Shown here: piece by piece, positions 1 through 24,458 of the stretch
Position numbering within the stretch: the first letter of the stretch is position 1
How the letters are laid out: every line of letters starts with the position of its first letter
IMG/VR virus record: IMGVR_UViG_3300006919_011815
Coordinates: 1 to 24,458 of that record
DNA: 24,458 bases
Source: a virus
Strand: one strand, 5' to 3'
Translations under genes and position numbers: made by a program
Notes under the pieces: generated by a model
Databases searched by the model: none
Seen by the model: only the letters and a program-made list of their open reading frames with translations
What the model was told of the DNA's origin: nothing

Positions 1-1200
1 AGAAGAGGAAGGACAACTACCACATATAGTAGCAGAAGATGAAGGACAACTACCACATATAGTAGCAGAAGATGAAGGACAACTACCACATATAGTAGCA
101 GAAGATGAAGGTGATACATCTTCATTAGAAATAACTAATTGTTTTTCAAACTCAAGCTTAACTGCTTTGGTCGTTCCGGCTAATCCAAGATAAACCTCAT
201 CTCCTATTGTAATAGCAGCTGTTGAATACCCAGTACCTCTGTTTTGAATTCCACAATTTTCGAATTCTTTTTCATAGCTCTTCCATTGAATTTCATATGT
301 TTCAGGGTTGATTCTAAAGCAATATGTATCAGCCCAAAACGCACTATAAAGCCATCCATCAGGAGCCAAGTAACCGTGGAAATTTCTATTGACATTTGAA
401 ACTTTGAGATACTCAGCTGGTAAATCTATTTCTTCATATGTATCATCTACACAATTTATAATTAAAATCTTCTTACCTTTACGTGGTAAGCAAAATACTT
501 TGTCTAAAGACTCAACATAGGTAGCACCTACATATTTTACATTAAATCCAGATACTCCTGAAGTAACTCTCGGACCATCTAAATATTTAAACTCACCATT
601 CTTATCTATTTTAGCCACATAATTGTTAAGAGCTGGTGGCATGTAAACTTCACCCTTTTTATCAGCTGCTGCTCCCCATATGTGACCGTGTGATCCTTTC
701 TTTGTGGGTGTAAAAGAATCCACTTCCCCAGTTTTTGTATCATATGTGTATATTTTTAATGTACTTGTATACGATGGCATATAAATAATACCATTAGCAC
801 CTTCTGCTCCTGAACGTACCTGCGGAGTCATATTAAATTTTTTGACAGTAGTTATCTCACCTGTTTTTTTGTTGAGAATACCAATAGAGCTTGAATAGGC
901 CGGCATGTAATAAGTATTACCATCTGATGCTTCAACAGTACCGATAAAACCTTTTAATCCTTCTGCTTGCTTCTCTATTGTACCTGCTGCAATATCAGTT
1001 TTAATATGCATATCAGATTTATAACCTAATGAATGAATAATACCTGCATCATCAACTCCCATAGTACGGGTTTTAGTTAGGTTACCACTTATTTCACCTT
1101 CTAAATATTTAAATTTAGGCCAACTTACATCAGGGTTAGTACTCATACCCTTATTTATATCTCTCAACACTTTAAGCAAGTATCTACTACCCCAAAACAT
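1..1200 (-). CDS. Beta-propeller protein with C-terminal 11-residue Cys repeats (partial, 3' end off window)
   Basis: The reading frame is open for 400 codons and runs off the left edge without a stop. From about residue 60 to 355 it has roughly six repeats of about 40 residues, each with a short strand motif (YYMPAYSSSIGIL, IYMPSYTSTLKIY, VYMPPALNNYVAKI, VFCLPRKGKKILII, LYSAFWADTYCFRI, VYLGLAGTTKAVKL). This is the pattern of a beta-propeller of the PQQ/NHL/WD-like type. From about residue 361 it becomes PSSSATICGSC repeats. The start at 1200 overlaps the end of the DUF1501 gene by 14 bases and has AGGAAAGG nine bases upstream. An in-frame ATG at 1146 (MSTNPDVSW) is a plausible alternative that would drop 18 residues. 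No signal peptide is evident. Being third in the DUF1549-DUF1501 operon suggests a joint function, such as a surface or envelope-binding role. Its function is not known, and a virion adhesin is also possible. Confidence 0.8.
   Translation of the reverse strand, partial: MFWGSRYLLKVLRDINKGMSTNPDVSWPKFKYLEGEISGNLTKTRTMGVDDAGIIHSLGYKSDMHIKTDIAAGTIEKQAEGLKGFIGTVEASDGNTYYMPAYSSSIGILNKKTGEITTVKKFNMTPQVRSGAEGANGIIYMPSYTSTLKIYTYDTKTGEVDSFTPTKKGSHGHIWGAAADKKGEVYMPPALNNYVAKIDKNGEFKYLDGPRVTSGVSGFNVKYVGATYVESLDKVFCLPRKGKKILIINCVDDTYEEIDLPAEYLKVSNVNRNFHGYLAPDGWLYSAFWADTYCFRINPETYEIQWKSYEKEFENCGIQNRGTGYSTAAITIGDEVYLGLAGTTKAVKLEFEKQLVISNEDVSPSSSATICGSCPSSSATICGSCPSSSATICGSCPSSS
11..109 (-). repeat. Three perfect 33-bp tandem repeats encoding CGSC-containing units
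   Basis: Three identical 33-base units occupy 11-43, 44-76 and 77-109. A fourth, diverging unit begins in bases 1-10 and continues off the window. On the minus strand each unit encodes 11 residues (PSSSATICGSC) in frame with the propeller protein. Identity at every base, including third codon positions, points to recent copy-number expansion. The units directly abut with no spacers, so this is a coding tandem repeat. Confidence 0.95.
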
Positions 1201-2386
1201 CTTTAATAACCTTTCCTTTATCAGCTAATTCAAACGGACGTCCTGATGGTGATGAATATTCTTTATTAACATCTAATCCTGCTAAATAAGCAACAGTAGC
1301 ATTAATGTCTGATATAGTCACAGGATCTTTTACAACCTTAGAAGCTGTATCATCAGTCTCCCCATAAGCCATTCCACCTTTAACACCTGCACCAATGAGA
1401 ACTGTTGAGTATGCTTTAGGGTAATGATCACGACCTGTATTAACATTAATATTAGGTGTTCGTCCAAACTCTGTAGCAATAACAATAAGAGTAGAATCAA
1501 GCAACCCTTCACTCTCTAGATCTTCAACAAGTGCACTTACACCATCATCAAGCTCTTTAACTCGATCATCAAGCTTTGTAAAGTTATCTGTATGGGTATC
1601 CCAACCACCAGATGATACTTCAATAAACTTAATATCACCTTTAACCAATCTTTTAGCAAGAAGTAAACCTTGACCTAACCGGGAAGTGCCATAACGCTTT
1701 CTCTTAGCAGATGGCTCTTTACTAATATCAAACAACTCTAAGTCTTTAGATTTAAGAAACCGAACTGTATCATCATAGAACTCGTTATAGGTATCGGCAA
1801 TAGGTGCATTAATCTTTTTGTTAATTACCTTAAGCAAAGCCATTCTTTGTTGAAGCTTATCATCAACCTTTGAGTTCTTAAGACCATCTTTTGGATCTAC
1901 AATAGGTAAGGGTGACTGGCTCTTTGGTAAGAAGCCAGAACCTGGGTGAGTGCTAATACCATTAACTAGTACAAAGTCAGGAATAGCTTTATCTCTATCA
2001 GAAACATGCGATACCCACGAACCTAAAGATGGGTGAGTGATAGTTCCTAACTGCTTGTATGATGTTCTGCTGAGGTATTGAGCTTGCTGATGTGCACCGG
2101 TCTTAGACGTTGTTGAGCGTATTACAACAGCTTTATGCATTACTTCTGCTAATTTAGGAAGTCTATTCCCTATCTGAAAATCCCCTCGAGTAATAATCTT
2201 TTCCGTATCCCCCATTACCTCTTTATCATCTTTTGGATCAAAAGTATCAATATGACTCATACCCCCATCAAGATAGATATAGATAATGTTTTTTGCCTTT
2301 ACGTTATCAGCTACTGGAGCATCTGCATATGCTTTAACTCCGTATGTACTAGCTGCCAATGCTTGTATAAATGTTCTTCTTTCCAT
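1187..2386 (-). CDS. DUF1501 family protein, Tat-exported (alkaline-phosphatase/sulfatase-like fold)
   Basis: The 399-residue protein matches the DUF1501 family from end to end. The N-terminus is a twin-arginine signal (RRTFIQALAAS, then an Ala-rich stretch to about residue 23), so export across the inner membrane in folded form is expected. Family hallmarks are DGGMSHIDTFDPK at 40-52, GGWDTH at 260-265, EFGRTP at 306-311 and GRDHYP at 318-323, followed by GAGVKGGMAYGETD. These Asp/His clusters sit where related metalloenzymes bind metal, but no reaction has been assigned to the family that I can state. It starts one base after the stop of the DUF1549/DUF1553 gene with no Shine-Dalgarno, implying translational coupling. 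It is somewhat shorter than typical bacterial members. The family assignment is firm; the role in a phage is unknown. Confidence 0.93.
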   Translation of the reverse strand: MERRTFIQALAASTYGVKAYADAPVADNVKAKNIIYIYLDGGMSHIDTFDPKDDKEVMGDTEKIITRGDFQIGNRLPKLAEVMHKAVVIRSTTSKTGAHQQAQYLSRTSYKQLGTITHPSLGSWVSHVSDRDKAIPDFVLVNGISTHPGSGFLPKSQSPLPIVDPKDGLKNSKVDDKLQQRMALLKVINKKINAPIADTYNEFYDDTVRFLKSKDLELFDISKEPSAKRKRYGTSRLGQGLLLAKRLVKGDIKFIEVSSGGWDTHTDNFTKLDDRVKELDDGVSALVEDLESEGLLDSTLIVIATEFGRTPNINVNTGRDHYPKAYSTVLIGAGVKGGMAYGETDDTASKVVKDPVTISDINATVAYLAGLDVNKEYSSPSGRPFELADKGKVIKDVLG

Positions 2387-2387
2387 A

Positions 2388-4130
2388 TTAAATAATTAGT
2401 TTGAATTCGTGAGAGTTAATAAGTACCCAAACAATATCAGAGAATCCTACTCCTTTGAATGCTTGTTGTTCTTCTTTAGAAGGTGATCTACCAATATAAG
2501 AACGGAAAACATAATCTACTGCTTCCTTTCTTTTTAGATCTAAAAGTTTCTGACCAAGTCTACTCTCAACTGACATTAACTCTTTGGTCATACCAGAGTT
2601 CATAAGAGTTAGTATCTGCATAATGTTAGCCTCTTGATTACCGTTCTCGATTAGCTCTCTATCGGACCCACCAAACTCTAACATAAAGTTTCGAGCTCTA
2701 CCATCAAAGATATGAGATGATCTAATTGCAAAAACTTTACCAGCTTTAGGTGCTCCCTTATAATACTCTTTCTCTACCTTTTTAAAATCTTTATATATCT
2801 TTAATGCTTGTGTTGAGTTAAGTGTAGCTAGATCTTCTGGAAACATATAACGAAACTTCTCTATTCTATTTTCTGGCTGCCATTTATCTATATCTCCAGT
2901 ATATAGAGTTATAATACTATCCCAAAGCTGAGCAGCAGTCATTCTTCTCATAATAGGTCCTTGGAAATTGTCTTCTGGATCTGTTTCACAACCATAGAAT
3001 TTTGTATTATATAATATAGAATTAAACTTCTTAAGATCATAGTTAACTTCTTTCATTATATCAATTAGATATAATAACAATTTATCATTACGACTCTCAC
3101 GAAGCTCATCATATTCTGCTATATTGTTAAGATTATCAATTAAAGCAAATCCAAATGCTTTATGCCATAGTCTATTAACAATATTAGCAGTAAATGTAGG
3201 ATGCTCTTCACTTATCATCCATTGTGCAAAACTTGGCTGTAATTTATTTCTCTTACGAGTTTCTTTAACTCTATCACCAACTGGTGTAACTGCCTTAACT
3301 ACTTCACCAGGATCACCATCTTTATACTTATAATCATGCGGTAAGGAGAGCACCTTTTTGAGATCACTATCTACTTTATTACGGTATCCTCCTTGTTGCC
3401 AGAATTGACCAATTTCGTTAAGAGCTCCTTTTGTTTCTTTAGCTTTGTCTGTTGCTTCTGCTTCCTTACGAAGTCTTTGATATTCCTTGCGCATGCCCTT
3501 ATCACTCCTAGTATTAACAGTAGTAAAGAAGGCACTCATTTCATAATACTCCATCTGCGACCAATCATCGAAGGGATGGTCGTGGCATTGAGCACATGAG
3601 ACATCCATACCAGCAAATGCTTGAAACGTATTAGATACATTATCAAGTAGCATACCTTCATCTCTTAGAAAGTATCCAACAGCAGGATTAGTATATATTG
3701 TTCCTTGCGCAGTTAAAATATCTTTAACTAATTTGTTATATGGTGTATTCTTTTTAATTTGATCTCTGACCCAGGTAATATATGTTTCACCAGATACATT
3801 CCCATTGAGCTTCTTTTTTAATCTTAAATTATTAGCATAAAAGTTAAACATTGTTTCATTATAACCTTGCGAATTAATAAGATATTTAACTAATTCCGCT
3901 CTATCATTATATTTTTTAAACTCCATACTCTCTTCATATGTTGGTATTCTTCCAACAATATCAAGGAAAGCCCTTCTAACAAAAACATCATCAGATGATT
4001 TCTTAGGCATTGATAGTTTTTTATACTTTAAATCTGCCGAAATGATCTCATCGATCTTTAAACTATGATTTATGTCAGCGGAAAATAAGCTTAGAGTAAA
4101 AGCTAAATATAAGGAAATAAATTTAACCAT
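2388..4130 (-). CDS. DUF1549/DUF1553 (planctomycete-type) secreted protein with CxxCH motif
   Basis: The 580-residue protein begins with a Sec signal peptide (MVKFISLYLAFTLSLFSA). DUF1549 covers about residues 20-210, with FVRRAFLDIVGRIPTYEE and the end motif SCAQCHDHPFDDWSQMEYY; the CAQCH at 179-183 fits the c-type haem attachment pattern. DUF1553 covers about 295-575, with NRLWHKAFGFALIDNLN, RRMTAAQLWDSI and the closing VLINSHEF, typical of the family. A longer frame exists from 4148 (six extra residues). I chose 4130 because the signal peptide begins there and a perfect TATAAATA ends five bases upstream; the longer start would lie upstream of that promoter. It is the first gene of the operon with DUF1501 and the propeller gene. 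Such pairs are common in Planctomycetes and Verrucomicrobia, where the function is also unresolved. Base composition resembles the neighbouring phage genes, so any transfer was not recent. Confidence 0.93.
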   Translation of the reverse strand: MVKFISLYLAFTLSLFSADINHSLKIDEIISADLKYKKLSMPKKSSDDVFVRRAFLDIVGRIPTYEESMEFKKYNDRAELVKYLINSQGYNETMFNFYANNLRLKKKLNGNVSGETYITWVRDQIKKNTPYNKLVKDILTAQGTIYTNPAVGYFLRDEGMLLDNVSNTFQAFAGMDVSCAQCHDHPFDDWSQMEYYEMSAFFTTVNTRSDKGMRKEYQRLRKEAEATDKAKETKGALNEIGQFWQQGGYRNKVDSDLKKVLSLPHDYKYKDGDPGEVVKAVTPVGDRVKETRKRNKLQPSFAQWMISEEHPTFTANIVNRLWHKAFGFALIDNLNNIAEYDELRESRNDKLLLYLIDIMKEVNYDLKKFNSILYNTKFYGCETDPEDNFQGPIMRRMTAAQLWDSIITLYTGDIDKWQPENRIEKFRYMFPEDLATLNSTQALKIYKDFKKVEKEYYKGAPKAGKVFAIRSSHIFDGRARNFMLEFGGSDRELIENGNQEANIMQILTLMNSGMTKELMSVESRLGQKLLDLKRKEAVDYVFRSYIGRSPSKEEQQAFKGVGFSDIVWVLINSHEFKLII

Positions 4131-4135
4131 ATGTA

Positions 4136-4143
4136 TATTTATA
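4136..4143 (-). promoter_or_regulatory. T4-late-like promoter for the DUF1549-DUF1501-propeller operon
   Basis: A perfect TATAAATA on the minus strand lies five bases (TACAT) before the ATG at 4130. It sits just after the stop codon of the lysozyme gene. The exact match to the T4 late consensus ties these accessory genes to phage late control. With T4-like geometry the transcript would begin at or next to the ATG. Confidence 0.65.
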
Positions 4144-4149
4144 CACAAA

Positions 4150-4842
4150 CTATATAATATCCTCTAGTTCGGTAGCATATTTCAATCGCTTTTGGGTATG
4201 TGGGGTACCTGCTTTTTCATACCGTTTTAAGAAAATCCTCGTAGCATCTTCAACATTACTTGTTTGGTTTAACATCCGCTTTACCTTTTTATATTCTGGA
4301 TGCTTTTCCATTTCATATAAAATAAAATCTATTTGCGTATCTAAATCACTCCAATCAGTACCCCGTGTCTTAGCGAATTTAGTTAAATTAATAGGGTCTG
4401 TATCATACCTACCACCCTTTTCCCACTGCGCTAGTCCGCGACCCGGACCTCCACCCAGTTGCTTAACAGCAGGATCCAAATTAGATTCTGCTTTTAAATT
4501 TGCCACTATCCCTATAGCAGCAGTTTTCGTTAACCCTCCATCCGTCAGTCTATTAACAATATATTTTGTAGAGCCTTTTGTTGGGATATCATTAGATACA
4601 GAATCAATCTCAGTAGGAGGGGTTTCAATTTTGAGCTTTTGTAATATTTCTGAGGCAACCTTATCAAACTTAGGAGAAGATATTATTTCATCAGCTTTTT
4701 CAACAGCATCTATTTTTTGTTCTATTGGCTCTGGCCTCTCTTTAAGAGCTTTGAGAATGTAGTCAGTTTCATACGCAGTAGCACCTAAAGACAGCAACCC
4801 CATTAGTATCTCTTTATAACCTTCATCAAACTGCTCTGTCAT
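4150..4842 (-). CDS. Phage tail lysozyme (Phage_lysozyme2-like peptidoglycan hydrolase)
   Basis: This 230-residue protein has a C-terminal lysozyme-like domain at about residues 90-230, with the signature AAIGIVANLKAESNLDP and GGPGRGLAQW. The Glu in KAESNLDP (about residue 119) is the expected catalytic acid by family analogy, and GLAQW is the usual substrate-cleft motif. The N-terminal 90 residues are mostly helical and charged, apart from a short hydrophobic run (ILMGLLSLGATAY), and may anchor it to the tail or baseplate. The likely role is local cell-wall digestion during DNA injection, although an endolysin role at lysis cannot be excluded. Its ATG overlaps the stop of the zinc-ribbon gene by four bases (ATGA), so the two are translationally coupled. 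No holin is visible nearby, which favours a virion-associated role. Confidence 0.85.
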   Translation of the reverse strand: MTEQFDEGYKEILMGLLSLGATAYETDYILKALKERPEPIEQKIDAVEKADEIISSPKFDKVASEILQKLKIETPPTEIDSVSNDIPTKGSTKYIVNRLTDGGLTKTAAIGIVANLKAESNLDPAVKQLGGGPGRGLAQWEKGGRYDTDPINLTKFAKTRGTDWSDLDTQIDFILYEMEKHPEYKKVKRMLNQTSNVEDATRIFLKRYEKAGTPHTQKRLKYATELEDII

Positions 4843-5576: not shown

Positions 5577-6062
5577 ATGGTAGTAAGATTAGATAATTTA
5601 GAAAGTACACCTCTCGAGCAGAAATCTCTTGAGGAAGGCTACTTATATAAAGATATAAAATTTGATTTAGAATTCTCACGCTTTACCAGGCCTGAACTAT
5701 ACTCTACATCAGGACCAAAAGATCTTGCTGAACTACAAGATGGTCAAGCGGTTGTTAATTCTATTAAGAATATACTTACTACCACTCCTGGTCAAAAGTT
5801 ACTTAACCCTTTACTGGGCTTAGATTTTAGAAGCTATCTTTTTGAACCTGTAAATACAACTACTTCATATTTTTTAGGTCAGTTTATTTATTTAAATTTA
5901 GGGGTACAGGAACCTCGTATATCTCTTAATGAAGTTCGTATTACTGGTGATCCAGATAATAATCAATATGATATTGAAATTGGATTTAGCATTCCAAAAC
6001 TTGATATTAACGATCTGTCTTTAAACGCCACACTTAATAAAGATGGCTACGTTATTGTATAA
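5577..6062 (+). CDS. 25: Baseplate wedge protein, gp25-like (GPW/gp25 family)
   Basis: The length of 161 residues fits T4-type gp25. The region LAELQDGQAVVNSIKNILTTTPGQKLLNPLLGLDFRSYLFEP (about 50-91) and the later QEPRI at 111-115 match the gp25/GpW fold: a helix-turn region, then 'GxR...lGsdl..lLFEP', then the conserved Glu-Pro-Arg. In contractile-tail particles gp25 is the small wedge protein that nucleates the sheath and binds gp6. The gp6-like gene follows 26 bases downstream, matching the gp25-gp6 order of many T4-like environmental phages. The family was once annotated as lysozyme, but that activity is doubtful. The start is the first ATG after the GATAAATA motif. Confidence 0.9.
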   Translation: MVVRLDNLESTPLEQKSLEEGYLYKDIKFDLEFSRFTRPELYSTSGPKDLAELQDGQAVVNSIKNILTTTPGQKLLNPLLGLDFRSYLFEPVNTTTSYFLGQFIYLNLGVQEPRISLNEVRITGDPDNNQYDIEIGFSIPKLDINDLSLNATLNKDGYVIV

Positions 6063-6088: not shown

Positions 6089-7915
6089 ATGAGCCTTCAA
6101 GATTTTACAGACTACAGCCTTCCAAAGAATGCTTATCTCACTTTTGACGCTAACTCTTTAAAAGGGTTAATTATTGATAGGCTTAATGAAAATGAAACTT
6201 TTACAGATCAGAACTTCGAAGGATCGAATTTTAGTGCATTTATTGATGTTGTAGCTTATATGTATCACGTGTTATTGTTTCAGCTAAACACAACTTCAAA
6301 CGAGTCGACCTTTAACACTGCAACTATTTATGAAAACATGAATAAGTTGGTATCTAATATAGGATATAACCCACTAGGTGATCAAACATCACTTGTTAAT
6401 ATATCTCTTTCTGTATCGAATTTACCCTCTAACGTGTATACAATTCCTAGGTTTAGTTCTATAGCTGCAAACGGTAGTACTTACGTTACTATAGATGATA
6501 TTACATTTGAAAAAACAACTGATAATACTTTAGAGACTGTAACTACTTCCAATAGTACGCTTTATCAAGGAGTTGTAACTGAGACAACGTTCAACGCAAC
6601 CGGGGAGCCATATGAAAATATTATTTTAGTTGATACGTTTACCTCTAAACAATTTAAACAAAGTGTATCTAATGTTAAAAATACTAAATTTGTTAGCGAT
6701 AATACTTTTAATATATTTGTACAAAATAATTCCACTGGAGTTTGGACTGAATATACTGAAACATCTTCACTATTCTTAGAAGATTCAGATGCTAAGAAGT
6801 ATGAAAAACGACTTAATGGTAGCGGTAATTATGAATTTAAGTTTGGTAATAATTTAAATGGTAAGCAATTAGATGCTAATGATACTGTATTAATTTATTA
6901 TGTTACCTCGGATAATGAGGCCGGTATTATAAATCCTAATGCATTTGTAGATACCCCATTTGCGTTATACGGGTCTCCCACTTTCAATACTATTAAAGAT
7001 ATTATATATACTTCTGATCAAACATTGGTACTTCCTTCTCAACTTAGCAATATTTCTATTGACAATCAATTTGGTTCATCACCAACCAAAGTGGCTGAAA
7101 CTGTTACAGAAATAAGACGAAATGCGCCAAAAGTTTTTGCTTCTCAAAATCGCTTAGTTACAAAGAACGATTATGAGTATCAGATTAATAGAAACTTTAA
7201 TAATATAACCCGGAATGTAAAGATTTTATCCAACCAAGAATATACATCGAAGGTATTATCATATTACAATGAAATTGGGCTAGCAAATGGTAACGATGAT
7301 GCTCGTGTTTTATATTCACAAGTATTGTTTTCTTCGTCAACATCTTTTAACAATGTATACGTGTATACAGCTCCAACTAGTAATCCAACGTTAAATGGTC
7401 TTTCACCAAATTATTTAAATCCTGCCCAGAAACAATTAATTACAGATTTTTGTGATAGTAAAAAAGATATAACACAAAATGTAGTTATTTCAGACCCAAT
7501 TTTTAAGGCATTTTCTTTTGGAGCTCCAAACACTAATGACAATTCTGTTGACGATACGGTTAATAATTCTTCACTTCGAGTTACCTTAGATAAAAACCAA
7601 GCTATCAATGATGGTGCTGTTAAATCTGCAATTTACAATATTATTAATAACTATTTTGAGGCAGTACAATTAGGTAATATAATATCAGTAGCTAATATTA
7701 CAACAGATATTCTTAATATACCTGGAGTTACGGCCATAGATACTATTAATGGTGATAGTATAGTCCCCAACTTAAACTTTATTATTTGGAATCCGGATTA
7801 CAAAGAACAAGATAATGTTCTTCAATCACTCAACTACCAATTGGAAGACTTCCAGTTTGCATATTTTTACAATATTCAAAATATTACGAATAAGATTGCT
7901 ATACGACGATTGTAA
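6089..7915 (+). CDS. 6: Baseplate wedge protein, gp6-like (baseplate J-like)
   Basis: The 608-residue protein directly follows gp25. The central segment AETVTEIRRNAPKVFASQNRLVTKNDYEYQI (about residues 335-365) is the baseplate-J/gp6 signature of an Ala-Pro stretch, 'nRlVT..DYe' and following helix. The N-terminal YSLPKNAYLTFDANSLKGLIIDRLNE and FIDVVAYMYHVLLFQLN (about 50-75) fit the wedge-core helices. The C-terminal third has a strand-rich domain with GNIISVANITTDILNIPGVTAID, also typical of the family. gp6 forms the inner ring of the baseplate and transmits the sheath-contraction signal. Length and position are as expected for T4-like phages. Confidence 0.88.
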   Translation: MSLQDFTDYSLPKNAYLTFDANSLKGLIIDRLNENETFTDQNFEGSNFSAFIDVVAYMYHVLLFQLNTTSNESTFNTATIYENMNKLVSNIGYNPLGDQTSLVNISLSVSNLPSNVYTIPRFSSIAANGSTYVTIDDITFEKTTDNTLETVTTSNSTLYQGVVTETTFNATGEPYENIILVDTFTSKQFKQSVSNVKNTKFVSDNTFNIFVQNNSTGVWTEYTETSSLFLEDSDAKKYEKRLNGSGNYEFKFGNNLNGKQLDANDTVLIYYVTSDNEAGIINPNAFVDTPFALYGSPTFNTIKDIIYTSDQTLVLPSQLSNISIDNQFGSSPTKVAETVTEIRRNAPKVFASQNRLVTKNDYEYQINRNFNNITRNVKILSNQEYTSKVLSYYNEIGLANGNDDARVLYSQVLFSSSTSFNNVYVYTAPTSNPTLNGLSPNYLNPAQKQLITDFCDSKKDITQNVVISDPIFKAFSFGAPNTNDNSVDDTVNNSSLRVTLDKNQAINDGAVKSAIYNIINNYFEAVQLGNIISVANITTDILNIPGVTAIDTINGDSIVPNLNFIIWNPDYKEQDNVLQSLNYQLEDFQFAYFYNIQNITNKIAIRRL

Positions 7916-18950: not shown

Positions 18951-18958
18951 CATAAATA
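18951..18958 (+). promoter_or_regulatory. Late-promoter-like octamer before collar-like gene
   Basis: CATAAATA (seven of eight positions of the T4 late consensus) is followed by TATGT and the ATG at 18964. It lies directly downstream of an 11-bp hairpin, so transcription here may be reset between the propeller gene and the fibre genes. Confidence 0.6.
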
Positions 18959-22183: not shown

Positions 22184-24199
22184 ATGGATTATCCTACAGA
22201 CCTTCCACTCTCAGCTGTTGCAGTACAGATATTCGAGGAAGGCATGTCACCTCAATATGATATTACTTGGTCATTTACATATGAACTAAGCAATTACACG
22301 TCTGGTGATGAAATAGGATATTGCATGTTTTTACAAGATGCTAGCTTTCCATTAAGTGGTGGTGGCGTCGGGCCTGATCTTGGATTTTCAGGAAATACCC
22401 TTCTTAGTGCAGCTTTATCTTCACAACCTTTAAATAAACCTGTTTTAGGTATTGGATTTGATAGTCTGGGAGTTTTTGCATCAGAACTCATATATACAGA
22501 CGGGGTTACTCGTACTGGTAGAAGTTATGAACCTAATAGTATTACAATAAGAGATAAAAATCTCGACATAATTACAACTCATGCTATTAGTGCTTTTGAT
22601 TTAATTAGTTCCGGTAAAAAAACTGTACGTGCTCGGCTTGGTAACTACGGTCGTAAGGTTGTTGTTGATTACAAAGCAGAGTCTGATACATTTTATAAAC
22701 ATTTACTTACCCAGGAACTTTCTGGTATTGACGTGTATTCTAATACGCGGTACCGTCCAGGTGTATCTTTTGTAAAGCCTCTTACAAGTTCGAATACAAA
22801 CGGCACGATCGTTACTACAGGCTTTCATGTTGAAGGTAATCAAACAGAAACGGAAGAAGACACATTTACATTCACACCATTAACAGCATTTGCTATTGAG
22901 AATGCGACGTCCGGACCAGTACCTCAAGAACCACCGATTTCTGAAGATAGACCTAAATTACCATTTTTAGGAATGGAGCCGAATCTTGGATGTCCGGATA
23001 ATACATGTGATTTACCAACTCTCGGTACTAGTTACACGGGTGTATTTGAAACCTCTATATTATATGGAATGTCTGCTTTTATTGGAGATATCGATCTAAA
23101 ATGGAGCACTCCTTTATACCCATACCGGTTTGTTTATACATATGACGATATTATTCGGTTAGATACAGGCTTTGTAGGTAATGAAACCTGGAATTACGGT
23201 GGTGCTTTAAGAAGTCGGTTTACCTCAGAACTACAAGATTCTTTAAAATACGCAAATTACCCACCAATTAATCTTGCACCAGATGGGTATCCTTATGTGG
23301 TTAGTACTTTAACCACCGGTACAAGCTCTATCTACAAAGATACAGATACATCACGTCTCAAAGCTACTGTATACTCACCCCTTTCCACTACTGACTGGGA
23401 AGTATTTGTTGGATGCCCGTTTTATACACTATCATGTGGAATAACTGATCAATATTTATGTGATGTTTCTCGTAGATTTGAACAACTTCGACGCGTTGTA
23501 CTTAGCCCTATTAACCCGTTCCCTGAATGCTCCATAGCTGTGACTCCTAGTGTATCACCTACCCCCTCCATTACTCCGTCTATAACAACTACACCGTTTG
23601 CTACACCTACACCTACACCTTCTGTCACACCTTCAGTAACAATTACCCCGTCTATTTCAATCACACCTAGTGTTACTCCGTCTGTTACTCCATCAGTTTC
23701 AGTTACACCGTCTGTTACTCCATCAGTTTCAGTTACACCATCTATTACTCCTAGTGTAACCCCATCATTAACTCCATCAGCTTCTCTTAATCCATCACCA
23801 CCGGCAGCTTCAGTTACACCATCTGTTACTCCTAGTGTTACGCCATCAATTTCTACTAGTGTTACTCCGTCTATTACTCCTACATCAAGTGTTACACCGA
23901 GTGTAACTCCAAGTGTAACTCCATCATTAACTCCACCAGCTTCTCCTGATCCATCACCACCGGTTGCAGCTTCAGTTACACCATCTATTACTACTAGTGT
24001 TACGCCATCTGTTACTCCTAGTGTTACACCATCAATTTCTACTAGTGTTACTCCGTCTGTTACTCCATCGATCTCTGTAACACCTTCTACAACCCCGTCT
24101 TCATCACCGGCAGCTCCATCACCGTCAGCTACACCATCAATAACACCATCAACTACTCCTGCTCCATCTCCACCAGCTCCAACTCCGACCCCATCGTAA
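22184..24199 (+). CDS. Lectin-like protein with long Ser/Thr-Val-Thr-Pro C-terminal stalk
   Basis: The protein has 671 residues. About 20-230 resemble an L-type lectin/concanavalin-like domain: YDITWSFTYELSNYTSGDEIGYCMFLQDAS, a Gly-rich GGGVGPDLGFSG, then VLGIGFDSLGVFAS, the order of 'G-aFvl...GyG' and 'v.geFDt' strands in that fold. A second domain (about 260-445) has Cys pairs (GCPDNTCD; CPFYTLSCG; YLCDVS; PECS) that could form disulfides outside the cell. From about residue 447 to the end it is almost entirely (S/T)-(V/I)-T-P with Pro/Ala/Ser interruptions, a likely extended polyproline-type stalk or glycosylation-prone segment. An outer-capsid or tail-surface glycan-binding adhesin is the best guess. 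The start follows a late-promoter-like octamer by five bases. Confidence 0.78.
   Translation: MDYPTDLPLSAVAVQIFEEGMSPQYDITWSFTYELSNYTSGDEIGYCMFLQDASFPLSGGGVGPDLGFSGNTLLSAALSSQPLNKPVLGIGFDSLGVFASELIYTDGVTRTGRSYEPNSITIRDKNLDIITTHAISAFDLISSGKKTVRARLGNYGRKVVVDYKAESDTFYKHLLTQELSGIDVYSNTRYRPGVSFVKPLTSSNTNGTIVTTGFHVEGNQTETEEDTFTFTPLTAFAIENATSGPVPQEPPISEDRPKLPFLGMEPNLGCPDNTCDLPTLGTSYTGVFETSILYGMSAFIGDIDLKWSTPLYPYRFVYTYDDIIRLDTGFVGNETWNYGGALRSRFTSELQDSLKYANYPPINLAPDGYPYVVSTLTTGTSSIYKDTDTSRLKATVYSPLSTTDWEVFVGCPFYTLSCGITDQYLCDVSRRFEQLRRVVLSPINPFPECSIAVTPSVSPTPSITPSITTTPFATPTPTPSVTPSVTITPSISITPSVTPSVTPSVSVTPSVTPSVSVTPSITPSVTPSLTPSASLNPSPPAASVTPSVTPSVTPSISTSVTPSITPTSSVTPSVTPSVTPSLTPPASPDPSPPVAASVTPSITTSVTPSVTPSVTPSISTSVTPSVTPSISVTPSTTPSSSPAAPSPSATPSITPSTTPAPSPPAPTPTPS
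23530..24196 (+). repeat. Ser/Thr-Val-Thr-Pro coding repeat region with internal duplications
   Basis: The region encodes many variants of [12 protein letters not shown]. At the DNA level there are nested repeats. A 30-base unit (starting TCTGTTACTCCATCAGTTTC) is found twice in tandem at 23681-23740. A larger block at 23762-23880 recurs imperfectly at 23921-24066, with in-frame insertions of 3 and 24 bases. All changes keep the reading frame, pointing to recombination or slippage within a coding array. Confidence 0.9.
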
Positions 24200-24222
24200 C
24201 AATCGCTACACTCTAGTGAGAT

Positions 24223-24458
24223 ATGTCTGTAACTCCGACTCCAACGCTGACTGTAACGCCGTCGAAAACTCCTTCTGGTAGTTCATCTTCCCCTTCACCT
24301 TGCCCCAGTAGTACTCCAAGTAAGACTCCATCAGTAACTCCTTCGATTACACCAACAATCTCTGTTACACCTTCTGTTACTCCATCAGTAACTCCTTCGA
24401 TTACACCAACAATCTCTGTTACACCTTCTGTTACTCCATCAGTAACTCCTTCGATTAC
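24223..24458 (+). CDS. Second Ser/Thr-Val-Thr-Pro repeat protein (partial, 3' end off window)
   Basis: An ATG at 24223 opens a frame that stays open to the window end (78 codons plus two bases). It begins [20 protein letters not shown], has a Cys-containing linker ([14 protein letters not shown]) and then enters [18 protein letters not shown] repeats. It lies 23 bases after the stop of the preceding stalk protein. GTGAG upstream is a weak ribosome site, and no octamer is seen, so it is probably co-transcribed. Only the repeat start is visible. It may be a repeat-only linker protein or the N-terminal stalk of a longer protein. An alternative is that the two genes were once one and a stop arose between them, but the new ATG and the non-repeat intergenic bases argue for separate genes. 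Confidence 0.7.
24331..24458 (+). repeat. 54-bp tandem repeats encoding [18 protein letters not shown]
   Basis: Units start at 24331, 24385 and 24439. The first two are identical over 54 bases and the third matches over its 20 visible bases. Each encodes 18 residues in frame with the partial gene from 24223. The array continues off the window. Confidence 0.93.

Follow-up and report, generated by a model that had tools for sequence, protein, structure and literature searches.

A pair of bacterial-type genes, encoding a PSCyt2-PSD1 (DUF1549/DUF1553) protein and a DUF1501 protein, is a real, conserved and phage-owned unit that has been kept by uncultured phages, for which we hypothesise a role at the host envelope. 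Established here are the identity of both genes, their pairing and conservation, the purifying selection upon them, their late-promoter position, the fold class of the DUF1501 protein and their proximity to peptidoglycan hydrolase genes.

The gene pair and its surroundings in the window

The window (i.e., the whole stretch of DNA that was analysed) is an IMG/VR virus record of 24,458 bases, in which both genes lie on the minus strand (Table 1). An earlier sequence-only reading of this DNA had named them as DUF1549/DUF1553 and DUF1501 genes adjoining gp25/gp6 and a tail lysozyme, and both points were borne out by Pfam and profile matches. The Tat signal, haem motif, nearby lysis genes, old age of the viral clade and non-T4 phage carrier described below had escaped that reading. 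The domains score above their curated cut-offs (132.1 bits vs. 29.8 for PSCyt2, and 80.7 bits vs. 28.5 for PSD1), and the DUF1501 match is full-length (332.8 bits, profile positions 1–390 of 390). The PSCyt2-PSD1 ORF spans 2388–4148 (–); an upstream TTG was rejected as its start, the gene starting at 4130 (MVKFIS...). Following the gp6-like gene, the plus strand encodes more tail proteins, i.e., one with a Gp10 C-terminal domain and two Mtd-N proteins, one of which also has a collar domain. Further on (22184–24458), a long protein with many PTPS/TPSV-type repeats is encoded, with more such repeats at the contig end.

Table 1. Features of the window (positions in the 24,458-base record)
Feature	Position	Strand	Basis or remark
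Propeller-like gene, cut at contig end	1..1146	(-)	Start set by promoter spacing; repeat pattern
Second TATAAATA	1152..1159	(-)	5 nt ahead of propeller ATG (1146)
DUF1501 gene	1187..2386	(-)	Pfam 4.2e-99; 399 aa
PSCyt2 (DUF1549) + PSD1 (DUF1553) gene	2388..4130	(-)	Pfam 3.5e-38 and 1.4e-22; 580 aa
TATAAATA late-promoter core	4136..4143	(-)	5 nt upstream of PSCyt2-PSD1 ATG (4130)
Phage_lysozyme2-domain gene	4150..4842	(-)	Directly upstream of the pair; Pfam PF18013 7.7e-33
gp25	5577-6062	(+)	Profile/domain match
gp6-like gene	6089-7915	(+)	Profile/domain match
Further ATAAATA core with 5-nt start spacing	18951-18958		

The same reading had added a beta-propeller gene as third member of an operon, with the first two genes 1 base apart and the DUF1501 and propeller genes overlapping by 14 bases. 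The gap was confirmed, while the overlap probably stemmed from a wrong start: since a second TATAAATA is located 5 nt ahead of the in-frame ATG at 1146, the propeller gene most likely starts there, with its own promoter and clear of the DUF1501 gene. A three-gene operon was rejected on this separate promoter and start and on the slot behind the pair, which is variable, being occupied by other genes in L003 and L014, with a homologue of the propeller gene situated elsewhere in L009. The occupant in L014 is a second DUF1501 gene (L014:11203-12624), and the propeller's place in L003 shows a weak trypsin-like match behind DUF1501 (L003:13009-13664; 1.9e-3, under cut-off). The propeller assignment rests on the repeat pattern of a gene cut by the window, and no Pfam, PHROG or PDB match was found for its product. 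At its C-terminus this protein has a Cys-rich tandem repeat of 11 residues (SSSATICGSCP; period 33 at window positions 1–111), and a propeller-like protein encoded at L001:12949-14430 likewise has a terminal SSSATICGSCP repeat.

Phages that carry the pair

Searching viral and metagenomic contigs, as the sequence-only reading had advised, showed that about 22 IMG/VR records have close copies of the pair, some of them beside gp25/gp6. The carriers proved to be mostly T4-like, much as it had proposed, and T4 core genes are found on their contigs: Gp23 was present in 7 of the 20 pair-carrying records examined, and record G006 (170,908 bp) encodes homologues of gp55, gp17, gp20, gp18 and gp44, several of which were also found in G001 or G008. 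Among the best matches listed, the G006 Gp23 is at most about 34% identical to GenBank phage records. G019, the record of locus L038, is a different kind of phage (with a terminase, a 2,340-aa tape measure, DnaB and a DNA polymerase), in which no Gp23 was found and which is hence not classed as T4-like; it also contains a large apparent sugar/surface-polymer biosynthesis cluster (L132 and L133), judged from N-terminal sequences only.

Two outcomes that would have undone the sequence-only reading, a chimeric join and genes confined to bacterial chromosomes, did not materialise. The same gp25-side join recurs in the independent contigs L001, L002, L003, L005 and L027, so that a chimera was rejected, and the genes occur on many phage contigs. 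None of the GenBank phage records encodes the PSCyt2-PSD1 or DUF1501 protein of this pair. A literature search returned no phage paper on these families, the lone DUF1501 mention in phage literature being a weak CDD match of a 61-aa protein. As far as these searches show, the pair is new to phages, in keeping with the earlier statement that no phage system built on these genes had been described. Since 20 other records with a related Gp23 (one of 230 kb; most of them fragments) are without the pair, it is accessory and dispensable for lysis in general.

Origin, selection and probable hosts

The phage pair shares with the PVC-bacterial combination of PSCyt2 (PF07583, DUF1549)-PSD1 (PF07587, DUF1553) and DUF1501 (PF07394) its domains, CxxCH and Tat motifs and conserved DUF1501 residues, as well as the order of PSCyt2-PSD1 followed by DUF1501, seen in nearly every bacterial locus fetched and in the viral loci. 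It differs, however, in its location in phage genomes, in the late promoter of its T4-like carriers, and in length (i.e., PSCyt2-PSD1 of about 580 aa vs. mostly 620–850 aa in the bacterial loci fetched). Moreover, it forms a deep clade. In the trees of both proteins, which had been suggested as a means of placing the donor, all viral copies fell into a single clade (SH-aLRT of 100 each; stems of 0.75 and 1.01) with broadly matching internal branching. Four added bacterial rows of the DUF1501 tree (L230, L231, L232 and L234) were in the wrong frame and were disregarded. The viral copies are 50–95% alike but only about 30–45% identical to bacterial ones. Given these long-stemmed single clades and the matching branching, the pair seems to be an ancient, single acquisition whose two genes have since moved together. 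Recent transfer from bacteria was rejected, because the best bacterial matches score about 400–450 bits vs. about 990–1160 bits for full-length viral ones, and because there is one viral clade. The bacterial sister of this clade was Verrucomicrobial in both trees, with a support of only 86 and with different bacteria in each. It was clear from the dN/dS values (0.025–0.095 over 15 comparisons) that the pair is under strong purifying selection. Furthermore, the pair of L004 is of the window type (91% identical) and lies at the amidase/ribonucleotide reductase (RNR) site used by other lineages, which suggests exchange between phages.

The second DUF1501 of L014 is 74% identical to a gene in one of the sampled Verrucomicrobiota genomes and 73% to one in the sampled Planctomycetota genomes, and no second DUF1501 follows the pair in its near relative L030; judged by these identities, it is a later, separate uptake. 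This uptake, together with the fact that the loci found for the DUF1501 and PSCyt2-PSD1 families are nearly all from PVC bacteria and Acidobacteria, makes PVC bacteria the probable hosts, so that the earlier hint of a PVC-group host now appears likely. CRISPR-like short DNA matches to 388 Verrucomicrobiota genomes fell only inside the two coding families, and the records read contained no tRNA to assist host assignment; one tmRNA gene, predicted to encode a long tag peptide, was noted in G006 (L129:4252-4661). Shine-Dalgarno motifs precede 8–12% of starts (vs. 6–8% in shuffled leaders), compared with 19% vs. 12% in PVC loci, and this scarcity is compatible with a PVC host without being specific for it.

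A late promoter set five nucleotides from the start codon

The perfect TATAAATA that had been reported five bases from the PSCyt2-PSD1 ATG is indeed present (Table 1). The number of such 8-mers in the window (8 vs. 6.8 expected) is at chance level and was rejected as evidence; it is the spacing alone that exceeds chance, with three occurrences of ATAAATA-N5-ATG against 0.35 expected and 0 of 100 shuffles reaching three. Across the PSCyt2-PSD1 starts compared, [CT]ATAAATA was found exactly 5 nt ahead of the ATG in 14 of 15 cases, the sole exception being L016, of non-T4 type. Spacing 5 likewise accounted for 24 of the 97 ATAAATA motifs in G006, 12 of 58 in G001 and 9 of 36 in G008, and for none of 35 in the non-T4 record G019.

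The spacing was further compared across phages (stretches L121–L129 and L134–L140, plus 20 related records). ATAAATA-N5-ATG was present in all 20 related records, far exceeding the reversed control, and 6 of 18 ATAAATA motifs in Pelagibacter phage HTVC008M were at spacing 5. In the T4 and P-SSM2 stretches no ATAAATA was found at this spacing, the distance there being 12–55 nt. The 5-nt arrangement is thus general in a large group of uncultured T4-like phages. Because the core of T4 late promoters lies at about –13 to –6, a core 5 nt from the start codon implies that transcripts should begin at or beside the AUG, and the late mRNAs of these phages would be leaderless or nearly so.

Predicted properties of the two proteins

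The PSCyt2-PSD1 protein has a signal-peptide-like N-terminus (by hydropathy) and a single CxxCH haem-binding motif (CAQCH at residue 179), of which C179, C182 and H183 are invariant across 54 viral and bacterial sequences. It is therefore a predicted haem protein that is apparently exported. Its structure model (pLDDT 89.5) gave no significant fold match in PDB or BFVD.

The DUF1501 protein bears a twin-arginine motif (RRTF) at its N-terminus, with R3, R4 and F6 invariant in viral copies, and is apparently exported by this signal. Its AF2 model (pLDDT 89) was matched by Foldseek to sulfatases, sulfamidase, LtaS and alkaline phosphatase (best match with an E of 1.6e-7 and a probability of 1.00, at a TM-score of only about 0.4), and its weak PDB sequence matches were all sulfatases. 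The protein models as having an alkaline-phosphatase/sulfatase-superfamily fold and is a predicted enzyme. R3, R4, H99, D263, D280, R309, R319 and H321 are invariant in all 60 DUF1501 sequences; H265 is conserved, as is E306 save for a D in one viral copy, and D40 is invariant in viral copies only. No catalytic nucleophile could be assigned among the conserved residues of these 60 sequences.

The literature searched yielded no activity for any DUF1501 or PSCyt2-PSD1 protein. PSCyt2 genes have been linked, with no function given, to polysaccharide and sulfatase neighbourhoods (PMC5615132), and DUF1501 has been noted to carry a Tat motif (PMC5122149). The latter study places a DUF1501-DUF1800 pair near bacterial chitin synthases, which resembles the phage pair in having a Tat-motif DUF1501, whose operon is associated with a polysaccharide enzyme, but its partner is DUF1800 instead of PSCyt2-PSD1, and it is chromosomal with no phage link (PMC5122149).

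Peptidoglycan hydrolase genes near the pair

Every T4-like neighbourhood read to usable length has a peptidoglycan hydrolase gene within a few genes of the pair. At the gp25 site (the window, L001, L003 and L027, with L002 and L005 in the same arrangement), a Phage_lysozyme2 gene is directly upstream. L014/L015, from a different phage lineage, carry in that same place a homologue 70% identical to that of the window, with an amidase further up. An amidase gene is located three genes upstream of the pair in L004, directly downstream in L009 and L025, and upstream in L010–L013, L018 and L030–L036, where a Phage_lysozyme-domain gene also lies downstream (the L013 amidase is in the record, outside the stretch read for synteny). 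These last loci encode, between the pair and the lysozyme-domain gene, a small signal-bearing protein (p157) with a weak outer-membrane beta-barrel match (1.6e-4, below the Pfam cut-off). G006 has one Amidase_2 in its entire length, about 5 kb from the pair.

The arrangements at the amidase site have a common ancestry, and RNR and phosphoribosyltransferase genes lie near the pair there; in most lineages the pair is at this amidase/RNR site, away from structural genes. In the non-T4 loci L016 and L038, the neighbours of the pair are not lysis genes but DUF5824 and sugar-biosynthesis/glycosyltransferase genes. Similar N-terminal segments were observed in the Phage_lysozyme2 protein of the window and in Phage_lysozyme-domain proteins (L018:12132-12950; L012:12100-12972), among which catalytic domains have apparently been swapped.

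Possible roles of the pair

The predicted late timing, two export signals and the hydrolase neighbourhood favour a role at the envelope, of which assistance with exit would be the simplest form. We lean, with a confidence somewhat short of even, towards the pair being a late, exported module of an old phage lineage, with the envelope or the surface glycans of a PVC-type host as its target, probably to aid virion exit or lysis. An envelope-modifying or -degrading function had been raised by the sequence-only reading and, given also the fold class, is the best reading of the data. In such a scheme, gp55-type late transcription (motif spacing) would start at or next to the AUG; PSCyt2-PSD1 would pass through Sec and receive covalent haem from host machinery in the periplasm (signal peptide and CxxCH), and Tat would export the folded DUF1501 protein (invariant RRxF). 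The latter might then act on a surface polymer by cleaving or transferring a sulfate or phosphate ester, assisted by the haem protein in a redox or structural capacity, and an envelope layer resistant to the neighbouring amidase or lysozymes might thereby be loosened, as their position suggests. Like phage lysis modules (endolysin, holin, spanin), the pair comprises late genes adjoining amidase and lysozyme-domain genes, as synteny and promoter position show, but neither of its proteins resembles a known lysis protein. To our knowledge, no lysis component made up of a haem protein and a sulfatase-fold enzyme has been described. Against an exit role, proximity is not function, and T4-like phages carry several peptidoglycan hydrolases. 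A bolder and rather doubtful proposal is that the pair represents a new class of phage envelope-breaching system, in which a Tat-exported sulfatase-fold enzyme and a Sec-exported c-type haem protein would open an outer layer of PVC-type cells during lysis, both genes being retained and passed between phages together.

The main rival, which we consider unlikely, is that these are auxiliary metabolic genes sustaining a host process (e.g., sulfated-polysaccharide uptake or breakdown, or periplasmic electron transfer), their proximity to lysis genes being incidental. Bacterial PSCyt genes do cluster with sulfatases and carbohydrate-binding modules (PMC5615132). PVC genomes hold many PSCyt copies (2–54 in six genomes), a planctomycete relative of the second L014 DUF1501 is followed by a sulfatase-like gene, and the amidase-site pair lies near the RNR and phosphoribosyltransferase genes. 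Such genes resemble the pair in being of bacterial type and retained by phages under purifying selection, but the pair is an old virus-specific clade and not a recent host copy, and both its proteins are apparently exported. A late promoter would moreover leave the pair little time in which to feed the host; hydrolase neighbours recur in several arrangements, and among the genes beside the pair no transporter or catabolic gene for a pathway of this kind was seen. The export signals and fold class would equally suit an exported pair that alters a host polymer late, for superinfection exclusion or receptor removal, stopping virions or rival phages from binding to the dying cell or debris. The surface-sugar genes around the pair in L016/L038 and p157 downstream of it in several lineages fit this idea; the p157 match is weak, though, and exclusion genes are usually early instead of late, so that we regard it as improbable. 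Least probable are virion components, packaged or displayed on the particle and acting at entry, which the sequence-only reading had also put forward. The late promoter and the adjoining baseplate genes and tail-lysozyme-domain gene of the window lineage would suit such proteins, but both carry export signals and most lineages have the pair away from structural genes.

Significance

Many PVC genomes have tens of copies of the DUF1501 and PSCyt/PSD families, to which no function has been assigned. The compact two-gene phage version, with its strong selection, late promoter and hydrolase neighbours, narrows their possible roles and offers a small testable system. We know of few phages for PVC bacteria, which are the probable hosts of the uncultured, mostly marine-looking T4-like phages that this pair marks out as a group.
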